From Candidatus Nitrotoga sp. CP45 (GTDB lineage: Bacteria > Bacteroidota > Bacteroidia > Flavobacteriales > Flavobacteriaceae), in NCBI GenBank assembly GCA_943329165.2, contig CALQCV020000050.1:1-10311 (forward strand): a stretch of DNA of 10,311 nt, in the 5' to 3' direction. Below the pieces are notes generated by a model. The model was given only the letters and a program-made list of their open reading frames with translations. It searched no databases and was not told where the DNA came from. The first letter of the stretch is position 1. Every line of letters begins with the position of its first letter. Position numbers and translations under genes: made by a program. This document shows, piece after piece, positions 2,655-6,030 of the stretch.

Positions 2655-3485
2655 ATGATTATCCCAAAGACAAGAGAAGAGATAGAATTAATGCGTGAAA
2701 GTGCGTTACTGGTATCTAAAACCCTTGGCGAAGTTGCTAAAGTAATTAAGCCAGGCGTTACTACCTTACAATTAGACAAATTAGCCGAAGAATTTATAAG
2801 AGATAATGGAGGAATTCCTGGATTTCTTGGACTATACGGTTTTCCGAATACGCTTTGTATGAGTCCGAATGCACAAGTTGTACACGGAATTCCGAATAAC
2901 ATTCCGCTACAAGAAGGCGATGTGATTTCGGTTGACTGTGGTGTGTTGAAAAATGGTTTTTATGGAGATCATGCATACTCTTTTGAAATTGGGGAAGTAC
3001 TACCTGAAGTTAAGAAACTATTACAGGTAACCAAAGAAAGTTTATATGTAGGTATTCGAGAATTCAGAATAGGAAATCGCGTGGAAGATGTTGGAAATGC
3101 TATTCAGAAATACTGTGAATCTAATGGTTACGGTGTAGTACGAGAATTAGTTGGTCACGGATTGGGAACCAAAATGCACGAAGATCCGGAAATGCCAAAC
3201 TATGGGAAACGTGGTCGCGGTAAATTATTCGTCGAAGGAATGGTTGTCGCCATCGAACCGATGATAAATATGGGAACAAAAAACATCAAACAACTCAAAG
3301 ATGGTTGGACAATTTTGACTGCTGACGGAAAACCAAGTGCGCATTTCGAACACAATGTAGCTTTGATTGACGGTAAACCTGAAATATTATCAACATTTCA
3401 GTATATCTATAAGGCTTTAGGAATAGTTAGTAATGAAGAAGATGAATTCAGAAACACAGATTCCACAAATTTGCACAGATTGTAG
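2655..3485 (+). CDS. map: type I methionine aminopeptidase, with C-terminal tail from an inserted repeat
   Basis: 276 residues. The enzyme removes the N-terminal methionine from nascent cytosolic proteins using a dinuclear metal centre. All expected active-site residues of the pita-bread fold are visible: H77 in QVVHGIP, metal ligands D94 (VDCG) and D105 (YGDHA), H168 (VGHGLG), E201 (AIEPM) and E232 (HFEHN). GGIPGFLGLYGFPNTLC at 52-68 is the typical substrate-side segment. The N-terminus MIIPKTREEIELMR starts like the family, which supports the ATG at 2655. The conserved body ends near EEDEFR (residue 266). The last ten residues, NTDSTNLHRL, are encoded by the left inverted repeat at 3452-3481, and the TAG directly follows the repeat. 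The original tail and stop were therefore probably replaced by the insertion. The enzyme should remain active because the tail is beyond the catalytic domain. Confidence 0.96.
   Translation: MIIPKTREEIELMRESALLVSKTLGEVAKVIKPGVTTLQLDKLAEEFIRDNGGIPGFLGLYGFPNTLCMSPNAQVVHGIPNNIPLQEGDVISVDCGVLKNGFYGDHAYSFEIGEVLPEVKKLLQVTKESLYVGIREFRIGNRVEDVGNAIQKYCESNGYGVVRELVGHGLGTKMHEDPEMPNYGKRGRGKLFVEGMVVAIEPMINMGTKNIKQLKDGWTILTADGKPSAHFEHNVALIDGKPEILSTFQYIYKALGIVSNEEDEFRNTDSTNLHRL
3452..3481 (+). repeat. left arm of 30-bp inverted repeat
   Basis: The arm contains three head-to-tail octamers: CACAGATT at 3455, CACAAATT at 3464 and CACAGATT at 3474, spaced 9 and 10 bp. It pairs with 3865-3894 with mismatches only at arm positions 12, 17, 22 and 23. 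It is also read in the map frame, giving the C-terminal residues NTDSTNLHRL. Confidence 0.88.
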
Positions 3486-3486
3486 G

Positions 3487-3861
3487 ATGGAAGATTTTTA
3501 TCTAAAAGAGGAAACCTATCAAATAATTGGTTTGTGCATGGAAGTCCACAAAATTCTTGGCAAAGGACATAGTGAAAATGTATATGGTGATGCTTTGGAA
3601 TATGAGTTTAAAATGAATAATATCCCATACGAAAGAGAAAAGAAATACAATATTGAATATAAAAGCATTGTGCTTCCTAGGTATTATTTTTCTGATTTTA
3701 CAGTTTTTAATGAAATTATATTAGAACTTAAAGCCATTGAAACGCTATCTAATAGTGAATTAAAACAAACCTTAAACTATTTAGCTGCCTCTAAAAACAA
3801 AATTGGTTTACTAATCAATTTTGGTGAAGATAGCTTAAAATACAAACGCGTTATTCTATAA
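3487..3861 (+). CDS. GxxExxY-family protein, PD-(D/E)xK nuclease-like
   Basis: 124 residues from the ATG at 3487, the typical size of the family. The naming motif is present as GHSENVY (27-33). The rest follows the family pattern: YQIIGLCMEVHKILGKG at 11-27, a conserved middle SDFTVFNE (69-76), the strand ILELKAIE (78-85), a helix LKQTLNYLAAS (92-102) and the strand IGLLINFG (106-113). E30, D70, E80 and K82 fit the acidic and lysine positions of a PD-(D/E)xK nuclease active site, to which this family has been related; biochemical activity is not established to my knowledge. An ATG at 3433 would read through the left repeat and part of map; 3487 is preferred because it begins 1 nt after the map TAG and directly precedes the conserved domain. 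That spacing (TAG-G-ATG) allows re-initiation by ribosomes leaving map. The flanking inverted repeats are the obvious candidate substrate. Confidence 0.85.
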   Translation: MEDFYLKEETYQIIGLCMEVHKILGKGHSENVYGDALEYEFKMNNIPYEREKKYNIEYKSIVLPRYYFSDFTVFNEIILELKAIETLSNSELKQTLNYLAASKNKIGLLINFGEDSLKYKRVIL

Positions 3862-3864
3862 TTT

Positions 3865-3894
3865 AATCTGTAAAAATCTGTGAAATCTGTGTTT
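3865..3894 (+). repeat. right arm of 30-bp inverted repeat
   Basis: Three inverted octamers are present: AATCTGTA at 3865, AATCTGTG at 3875 and AATCTGTG at 3884, spaced 10 and 9 bp, the mirror of the left arm. It begins 3 nt after the GxxExxY stop codon. It contains both candidate GTG start codons (3880 and 3889) of the downstream methyltransferase. Confidence 0.88.
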
Positions 3895-4713
3895 AAGTTT
3901 ATACTAAATACCATTCCGCGACCAATGCTTATCCAATTGAGTATTGTAGTTCGACCAATATTGGCTTTTATGTTAAAAGGAAATCGATTCACTGACCCAA
4001 TTGACGGAAAAAGTTTCCGGATGTTTTTGCCATATGGATATGGAAATCAACGAAACAATGTGCTCTCTCCAAGTACGCTTTCGTTAGAGCGACACCGATT
4101 ATTGTGGTTGTATCTGCAGAATGAAACTGATTTTTTTCAATCTGAACTTGATTCCGATTCTCCTATAACCAAAAACAAACGTATCAAATTACGAGATGCT
4201 AAAACAAGATCAGCACTAAAAGTATTGCATTTTGCACCGGAACAAGAGTTTTACAAACGTTTCAAAAAGCAAACTAATATTGATTATACTACAACCGATT
4301 TGCTTTCGCCTTTAGCAGATGTAAAAGCAGATATTTGTAATTTACCATTTGAAGACAATGCGTATGACTTAATCCTTTGCAATCACGTTTTGGAGCACAT
4401 CCCCGATGATACTAAAGCGATGCAGGAATTGTATCGGGTTTTAAAACCAGGCGGCATGGGCATCTTTCAAATTCCACAAGATTTGTCGAGAGCTACAACT
4501 TTTTCAGATAACACCATTGTTGATCAAAAAGAACGAGCAAAAATCTTCGGCCAATACGACCACGTTCGTGTTTATGGTAGAGATTATTTCGATAAACTAA
4601 GAAGTATCGGTTTTACAGTAGTCGAAGAGGATTACACCAACAAAATTGCTCCTGAATTGGTAGAAAAATATTGTTTGGCAAAAGGTGAAATCATCCCAGT
4701 TTGTTTTAAGTAA
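3880..4713 (+). CDS. class I SAM-dependent methyltransferase (Methyltransf_11 type)
   Basis: 277 residues if read from GTG 3880; GTG 3889 (274 residues, beginning at the VFKF segment as MFKF) is equally possible and may be nearer the original start. No ATG is usable: the first, at 3925, falls inside the conserved-looking TIPRPM segment. Both GTGs lie in the right repeat of the GxxExxY element. Numbering from 3880, the Rossmann core shows a variant motif I VLHFAPEQEF (115-124), TTTDLLSPLADVKADI (137-152), LPFED (155-159), the family signature ILCNHVLEHIPDD (165-177) and ELYRVLKPGG (183-192). DHVRVYGRDYF (227-237) and KGEIIPVCF complete the C-terminal part. The substrate is unknown. Residues about 87-113 form a charged linker (SELDSDSPITKNKRIKLRD) just before motif I that looks longer than I expect from flavobacterial relatives. 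It is expressed from upstream or from an unseen promoter; no promoter can be placed within the repeat. Confidence 0.85.
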   Translation: MKSVFKFILNTIPRPMLIQLSIVVRPILAFMLKGNRFTDPIDGKSFRMFLPYGYGNQRNNVLSPSTLSLERHRLLWLYLQNETDFFQSELDSDSPITKNKRIKLRDAKTRSALKVLHFAPEQEFYKRFKKQTNIDYTTTDLLSPLADVKADICNLPFEDNAYDLILCNHVLEHIPDDTKAMQELYRVLKPGGMGIFQIPQDLSRATTFSDNTIVDQKERAKIFGQYDHVRVYGRDYFDKLRSIGFTVVEEDYTNKIAPELVEKYCLAKGEIIPVCFK

Positions 4714-4779: not shown

Positions 4780-6030
4780 ATGCTAAAAAATCTCTTATCC
4801 TCTAGCCTTTTGTTGATTACTGCTATTTCTTTTTCACAAGCTGAAAAAGAAGTTTCTCCACCGTACAATATCAAAACCGTAAGCTTTGTTCAAAACAATC
4901 AAAATGCTGTCGCTATTTTTCAATTAGGTGATAGTTTTCAATTACAATTTGATGATTTGTTTGGCAATGAAGCCAATTATTATTATACAATCACACATTG
5001 TGATTATGATTGGAAACCCTCTCAGTTAGCAAAAGCAGAATACCTAAACGGTTTTGACGACCAAAGAATTCAGGATTATACTAATTCCTTCAACTCGCTT
5101 CAGCTTTATTCACATTATAAACTTTCCTTTCCAAATAGATTTACGCAATTTAGAGTTAGCGGAAACTATGTAATTAAAATTTTAAACGAAGATAAAGAAG
5201 TTGTTTTTTCAAGAAAATTTATCCTCTACGAACAAGTGGTTTCTGTACCATTGCAAGTAAAAAGAGCCCGAAACTTGACTTATGTTGAGCAAAAACACAA
5301 TTTAGATTTTGCAATAAAATCAACGTCCATAAATTTCCAAAGTCCGTTACAAAATGTAAAAGTGATGTTGCTGCAAAACGGTAAAATTGACAATGCAATA
5401 ACCAACATTAAACCACAATATACTATTGGTAATGATTTGATATATAAATATGATTCCGAAACCCAATTCTGGGCGGGAAATGAATTTCATTTTTTTGAAA
5501 ACAAAGATATTCGTGCTGCTAATAACAGCATAGCTACCATAGATTCTAAAGGCGGCGTGTACAATGCACATCTTTATTTAGACCAAGCAAAAGCAAATTT
5601 ACCGTATACTTATTTCCCAGATATTAACGGAAACTATATTATAAAAAACATTGGCGCCCAAAACAACGAAATCGAAGCCGATTATGCTTGGGTTTTCTTC
5701 TCTCTTTCAGCTCCAAGTTTATATGGCACAAAATCAATATACGTTAATGGCATGTTCAACAATTTTGCCATGAGCGATGAAAACAAAATGGATTATAATG
5801 CCGAAAAAGGAATCTACGAAAAAGCTATCATGATAAAACAAGGTTTCACCAATTACCAATATGTGATTTCAGAGCCTAAAGGAAAAATTGATCACCAAAA
5901 TGCGATCGATGGTAATTTTTTCCAAACAGAGAATAATTATTTTGTATTAGTCTATTACAAAGAAAATAATCAACGATACGATAGAATTATTGGAAGAGGA
6001 ATAGCAAGTTCAGTTGATATAACTAACTAA
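4780..6030 (+). CDS. type IX secretion system plug protein (DUF5103 family)
   Basis: 416 residues, full length for the family formerly called DUF5103. In Flavobacterium johnsoniae the plug protein associates with SprA, the giant outer-membrane translocon of the T9SS, and closes its periplasmic opening when no cargo is engaged. The N-terminus MLKNLLSSSLLLITAISFSQA is a signal peptide with cleavage near residue 20, so the mature protein is periplasmic. Recognised family segments are YYYTITHCDYDWKPSQL (67-83), followed by YLNGFDDQRI (88-97), then a beta-rich body with FPNRFTQFRVSGNYVIKI and RKFILYEQVVSVPLQVKRA. A C-terminal part resembles a carbohydrate-binding-like beta-sandwich (SIYVNGMFNNFAMSDENKMDY, then YEKAIMIKQGFTNYQY). 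The start is fixed by the signal peptide. The gene is separated by 66 nt from the methyltransferase and by 68 nt from apaG. Family assignment is confident; the mechanistic role is transferred from the described homologue. Confidence 0.88.
   Translation: MLKNLLSSSLLLITAISFSQAEKEVSPPYNIKTVSFVQNNQNAVAIFQLGDSFQLQFDDLFGNEANYYYTITHCDYDWKPSQLAKAEYLNGFDDQRIQDYTNSFNSLQLYSHYKLSFPNRFTQFRVSGNYVIKILNEDKEVVFSRKFILYEQVVSVPLQVKRARNLTYVEQKHNLDFAIKSTSINFQSPLQNVKVMLLQNGKIDNAITNIKPQYTIGNDLIYKYDSETQFWAGNEFHFFENKDIRAANNSIATIDSKGGVYNAHLYLDQAKANLPYTYFPDINGNYIIKNIGAQNNEIEADYAWVFFSLSAPSLYGTKSIYVNGMFNNFAMSDENKMDYNAEKGIYEKAIMIKQGFTNYQYVISEPKGKIDHQNAIDGNFFQTENNYFVLVYYKENNQRYDRIIGRGIASSVDITN

Follow-up and report, generated by a model that had tools for sequence, protein, structure and literature searches.

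A gene for a predicted Cas4-like nuclease (GxxExxY) and its flanking word arrays as a probable selfish unit comparable to REPIN-RAYT

The small GxxExxY gene that lies between map and a methyltransferase gene in the stretch of DNA analysed here, together with the inverted arrays of short words that frame it, is probably one selfish unit, similar to REPIN-RAYT systems in its working while not homologous to them. The stretch, hereafter called the window, is 10,311 nucleotides long and represents contig C50 of a 2.0-Mb assembly that is 77% complete. In the mechanism we propose, a minimal Cas4/RecB-type nuclease, whose gene stands within inverted arrays of short words, would recognise those words and bind paired arrays either as a duplex or as the hairpin that they can form when single-stranded. 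It would then cut at paired arrays or at an empty junction, and repair by copying would deliver the unit to the corresponding site of another genome, in the manner of homing, and would place bare arrays at further positions of a genome, in the manner of REPINs. Recognition, binding, cutting and copying of the words by the nuclease are what we infer from comparing sequences. A wider proposition, to which we give roughly even chances, is that a class of mobile DNA found across phyla has GxxExxY proteins as its enzymes and is a counterpart of REPIN-RAYT with an independent origin: a Cas4-like nuclease would read word arrays, insert copies of its own unit at fixed gene junctions in other species and spread bare palindromes through genomes.

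Features of the GxxExxY unit and its neighbours, in window coordinates
Feature	Position	Strand	Remarks
map, type I methionyl aminopeptidase	2655..3485	+	left neighbour of the GxxExxY gene
Left arm	3452..3481	+	words CACAGATT 3455-3462, CACAAATT 3464-3471, CACAGATT 3474-3481; Map's last codons are also read from the arm
GxxExxY protein, 124 aa	3487..3861	+	predicted minimal Cas4/RecB-like PD-(D/E)XK nuclease; conserved E30, D70, E80, K82, Q94, Y98
Right arm	3865..3894	-	words CACAGATT 3884-3891, CACAGATT 3875-3882, TACAGATT 3865-3872; methyltransferase GTG start inside the arm
Class I methyltransferase	3880..4713	+	right neighbour; GTG start (3880) within the right arm
Type IX secretion plug protein	4780-6030		beyond the methyltransferase

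The two arms match at 26 of 30 positions and stand 5 nt from the gene on the left and 3 nt on the right, values that a sequence-only reading of the window had given and that we reproduced. Elsewhere in the window, 30-bp pairs with loops of up to about 600 all fell short of 26 matches, and when the whole window was shuffled 20 times with its dinucleotides kept, the best pair reached 23 of 30. The same reading had called the arms inverted repeats. They do match in inverted orientation, but they are arrays of an 8-bp word rather than plain repeats: each holds three copies with spacers of 1 and 2 nt, about one word per helical turn, and the words agree better between the arms than the spacers do (91% versus 71%, a comparison biased because the words were located by pattern). 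The unit is also tight, as had been proposed, if judged by its gaps, but it overlaps both neighbouring genes, since the left arm codes for the end of Map (its ORF runs to 3485) and the right arm carries the methyltransferase GTG (3880). In relatives in which this junction is closed, Map has a common C-terminus, often ending in PLVL, which in the window is replaced by residues encoded by the left arm, and the methyltransferase starts with ATG in place of the GTG of the window. An alternative in-frame ATG at 3433 would lengthen the GxxExxY protein to 142 residues. An Rfam search of the window returned no matches. The description of the gene as standing alone did not survive, given that GxxExxY genes number six in this assembly, which also has 25 array matches to the window's word type, the window's own two arms counted in.

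The protein scores 129.9 bits against the TIGR04256 profile (GxxExxY protein; curated cut-off 35, E = 6e-38) and 114.3 bits against PF13366 (PDDEXK_3; curated cut-off 22, E = 5e-33). Its proposed PD-(D/E)xK-like residues E30, D70, E80 and K82 proved invariant, together with H21, Q94 and Y98, in an alignment of 51 sequences from which frames with stops were left out. The best PDB structure match of an AF2 model (pLDDT 92.8) is SSO0001, a Cas4. By prediction, then, the fold is that of a minimal Cas4/RecB-like PD-(D/E)XK nuclease, an alpha-beta core carrying D, ExK and QxxxY. Compared with Cas4/RecB-type PD-(D/E)XK nucleases (SSO0001, 4ic1), the GxxExxY protein differs in having only 124 residues, and no CRISPR genes were found among the eight window ORFs scanned by profile. 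A PDB sequence search with the window protein gave no match at E<=1, and a search with the profile gave two Csn2 chains at E about 1; PADLOC left the window protein without a match and gave a relative (L045) a weak Cas4 match. Within the genus, GxxExxY is present in 98 of 121 genomes, with at most 9 genes per genome, and the other 23 have no match; across the phylum it is present in 152 of the 296 genomes sampled.

Arms of this kind are the rule around GxxExxY genes. We scored the inverted match of the flanks with a cut of 12, the 95th percentile of the far-flank control being 11. At this cut, matching inverted word arrays were found at 121 of the 149 loci with both flanks present, against 4 of 131 control windows 800-1000 bp away, so that GxxExxY genes elsewhere are not consistently without arms, an outcome that the sequence-only reading had named as fatal to it. 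Arm-bearing loci include four from Cyanobacteria, one from a planctomycete, one from a Pyrinomonadaceae and two from Melioribacter-type records. The 28 loci, including L130 and L136 of other phyla, in which arms are absent at the cut used count against the selfish-unit reading. All six GxxExxY genes of the window's assembly score at least 13, and the words around them, judged by eye, are CACAGATT, CACGAAG, CACAAAG, CGCAAAG (twice) and a CATAGA type. The word consensus is C-R-C-N-R-A-K-like, a pattern that was also the selection criterion, and the distance between words is 8-13 bp in 422 of 508 cases. When the word labels of 124 genes are placed on the protein tree, 30 changes are needed where 71 are expected (minimum 59 in 200 shuffles). 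Because the word label follows the protein tree, arms and gene evidently travel together. Linked inheritance alone can explain this match of word and clade, and it does not follow that the protein reads the word. From the mutual information between protein columns and words, a measure uncorrected for descent, we name no recognition residues. At L370, a locus from another Bacteroidota order, two whole divergent palindromes frame the gene in place of single arms.

Related arrays also occur in large numbers without a gene. Using a strict three-word pattern, with the arms of gene units counted unless subtracted, we found up to 212 window-type arrays per genome, the reversed pattern giving 0 in all 121 genomes; a second word gave up to 276 arrays per genome against up to 3 for its control. 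Of 50 array loci fetched, 43 could be scored, 42 of them outside ORFs of 100 codons and three adjoining a GxxExxY gene. Among the other 40, an inverted partner lies downstream in 22 (within 250 nt in 21) and upstream in one. A 400-kb portion of one relative contains 8 strict general arrays, none within ORFs of 120 codons, and 0 for the reversed control. One gene-less array pair of the window's assembly (L008:317-383, on G000:C61) has an 11-nt loop and a left arm nearly the same as the window's, and is flanked by a guanylate-kinase-like end and, on the other side, a nadD-like gene, both named by eye. In the same assembly a longer dispersed repeat (L009-L013, on G000:C216, C3 and C6) holds a loop-less CACAAATT-word palindrome within conserved flanks. 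Three arrays in the same orientation follow each other in 91-bp steps at G052:C53:15702-15910, a spacing suggestive of tandem copying of a small unit.

The number of arrays varies with the presence of the protein. Window-type arrays have a median of 0 and a maximum of 8 in the 23 genomes without GxxExxY, and medians of 5.5 in genomes that have the protein with no close class (n=36) and 18.5 in those with a close class (n=62); the second word shows the same behaviour. After summing both words and subtracting two arms per gene, genomes with and without GxxExxY differ at p=9.5e-5 (size-matched, p=0.005); a size-matched comparison of 13 versus 38 genomes gave p=1.3e-5 and 3.5e-4. Genome size is a strong covariate of array counts, which climb with it, and all 28 genomes of at least 4.6 Mb have the gene, which counts against the link, as do four GxxExxY-bearing genomes with no array of either word. 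Phylogenetically independent pairs agree in direction (4.8 to 1.0; 4.0 to 0.1), the pairs being too few at median p of 0.22 and 0.125, and they fail to separate cognate from non-cognate protein classes, with one genome misplaced in class B. Regression favours specificity for the second word (t=3.9 for class B and 1.7 for class A), though not clearly for the first (3.8 for class A and 3.1 for class B). Elsewhere in the phylum, in another order, the link is weak: one word is found in 37 of 94 genomes with the gene versus 3 of 22 without (p=0.015), with p=0.12 for at least three copies, and several bare palindromes there have the divergent (opposite) sense, which also counts against the proposed link. 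The pattern is owed in part to genome size and to vertical inheritance.

The unit lies where one gene stops and the next begins, and is decayed or missing in many relatives. The map-methyltransferase junction was fetched from 110 of the 121 congeneric genomes; 107 could be resolved and three could not. The GxxExxY gene is present in 38, 35 are closed, meaning that the stop of map overlaps or almost reaches the start of the methyltransferase, and 34 are otherwise different. Empty junctions, which the sequence-only reading had suggested seeking, thus exist in relatives, and the opposite outcome, the gene at this locus in all of them without repeats, was not observed. No word array was seen in the closed junctions displayed. 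Among the 34 otherwise different junctions there are arrays without a gene (L017, L022 and L197) and, by eye, remnants (L212 and L252), and at least 5 of the 38 junction genes are split or truncated. Two junctions (L216 and L236) hold another palindrome (CCTGCAAGGTTTTC...), and four (L043, L185, L214 and L232) hold an unrelated ORF, zinc-ribbon-like by eye, in a gap of 828-848 nt. At L047, L055, L060 and L064 a second, weaker GxxExxY match lies on the far side of the methyltransferase.

The 38 junction genes belong to two distant lineages, I and II, with 19 members each; the median dN/dS in lineage I is 0.12, indicating purifying selection. On the tree of flanking proteins, lineage I versus II requires 13 changes (shuffled mean 13.05), as if random, while I, II and closed together require 26 (shuffled mean 31.9, minimum 27), some phylogenetic signal that counts against the selfish-unit reading. 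On a protein tree of 60 congeneric genes, junction membership changes twice, compared with 19.7 changes expected by shuffling. All 18 relatives that are at least 69% identical to the window protein are at the map junction. Other lineages hold junctions of their own: six recurrent ones account for 57 of 64 loci in a sample drawn by best match. Judging from sequence identity, recent transfer is clear for one pair only, G051/G031, in which the genes are 99.5% identical and the flanks 88-89%; the high-identity tract starts at the left arm and ends about 65 nt inside the methyltransferase. Against frequent transfer, the identity of the genes correlates with that of their flanks (r=0.54 and 0.75), and the gene is more alike than the flanks in only 45 of 171 and 13 of 171 pairs. 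Given this correlation, vertical inheritance followed by loss may account for much of what is seen at the junction.

These junction states would also be expected of a homing-endonuclease-like element and nothing more, in which the empty gene junction is cut by the nuclease, whose gene is then copied into it, the arms are landing or regulatory sequence and the dispersed arrays are unrelated relics or decayed units. The fidelity of lineages to their own junctions, the coexistence of occupied, decayed and closed states and the co-conversion-like tract of G051/G031 all fit this explanation. However, window-type arrays reach 212 per genome where genes reach 9 at most, a large number if the arrays are decayed units; roughly half of those scored at a distance from genes form tight pairs, and the displayed closed junctions lack a word array. 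We therefore consider homing alone unlikely. Adoption by the host is somewhat less probable again. The arrays would then be sites at which the nuclease acts in repair, replication or chromosome organisation, with selection on the host keeping both, as purifying selection, residence at conserved junctions and partly vertical inheritance might suggest, yet 23 of 121 congeners have no match to the protein, the gene decays or is absent at the junction, and a single genome carries several different words.

Movement of the arrays by another transposase, for example a Y1/TnpA-REP enzyme, with GxxExxY as a passenger or host factor within them, we place between these two in probability, and likewise as unlikely. 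Y1_Tnp occurs in 87 of the 121 genomes, genomes with both Y1 and GxxExxY have the most first-word arrays, and Y1_Tnp affects first-word counts (t=2.9); among GxxExxY genomes, moreover, Y1 carriers have more first-word arrays (p=8.5e-5, genome size uncorrected). Against this, nine genomes with Y1 and without GxxExxY average 1.4 and 1.1 arrays of the two words, none reaching 10 when summed, whereas six genomes with GxxExxY and no Y1 match have at least 20 arrays (171 in G004). The second word shows no Y1 effect (t=-0.7), and the GxxExxY effect with Y1_Tnp in the model is t=5.3 and 4.6. Y1 transposases, Y1_Tnp being the family compared, are neither needed nor sufficient for the arrays. It is very improbable that the arms serve a small gene simply as terminators in both directions or as regulatory hairpins: they do lie at the gene ends and are able to pair, but the periodicity of the words, their multi-copy dispersal and their link to the presence of the gene are unexpected for terminators, and words agree between the arms better than spacers, with the bias noted above. 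Dispersal by decayed units, terminators or Y1 transposases is less likely than the selfish-unit reading.

As characterised in two papers (PMC3733652, PMC6006769), REP/REPIN sequences with their RAYT are dispersed palindromic repeats outside genes, often paired, and tied to a nuclease gene that has such repeats on its flanks. The GxxExxY arrays are likewise palindromic, dispersed outside genes and of the type that flanks the gene. They differ in being built of short words (C-R-C by eye) where REPs are hairpins with a GTAG tag, in having several words per genome and in belonging to lineages resident at fixed junctions. The repeat-flanked gene product matches PF13366 only, and its PD-(D/E)XK Cas4-like fold contrasts with the HUH-Y1 fold of RAYT (TnpA-REP); as the enzyme fold differs, the GxxExxY system is not a member of REPIN-RAYT. 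A logic like that of REP/RAYT with an unrelated fold had been proposed from the window's sequence. By comparison this holds, in that the arms go with the gene, bare arrays are intergenic and counts track the protein, while the action of the enzyme on the repeats stays putative. The GxxExxY site, occupied, degenerate or empty in different species and with a co-conversion-like tract in one pair, also resembles those of homing endonuclease genes, and the same insertion site has empty homologues. Free-standing homing endonuclease genes are described by a cycle model of occupied, degenerate and empty site states. Unlike them, the GxxExxY unit is framed by inverted word arrays, is intergenic and has dispersed gene-less relatives. 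The arrays resemble MITEs as short non-coding palindromes that are possibly moved in trans, and differ in that no transposase partner was found for them (Y1_Tnp being the transposase compared).

By its enzyme and the build of its repeats the system appears to be new, while its logic parallels one known system, REPIN-RAYT. No description of such a system was found in the open literature (full text, titles and abstract starts), which takes in few subscription papers, and none of six array strings occurs in open-literature text; GxxExxY is mentioned there in passing only. For a family whose only name is its motif, the selfish-unit reading suggests a function and supplies a substrate on which it can be tested. 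Should the nuclease move the arrays, palindromes that are mobile through one nuclease will have arisen on at least two occasions, by way of enzymes that are not related, and some of the short intergenic repeats in Bacteroidota, Cyanobacteria and others would be accounted for.

With the protein of L045 as query, there were 0 matches in 50,697 phage records and 8 in 72,556 plasmid records. A paper on an algal virus includes a GxxExxY protein among its entries, and predicted viral structures with the GxxExxY fold exist, the best at 29% identity and a TM of 0.82.
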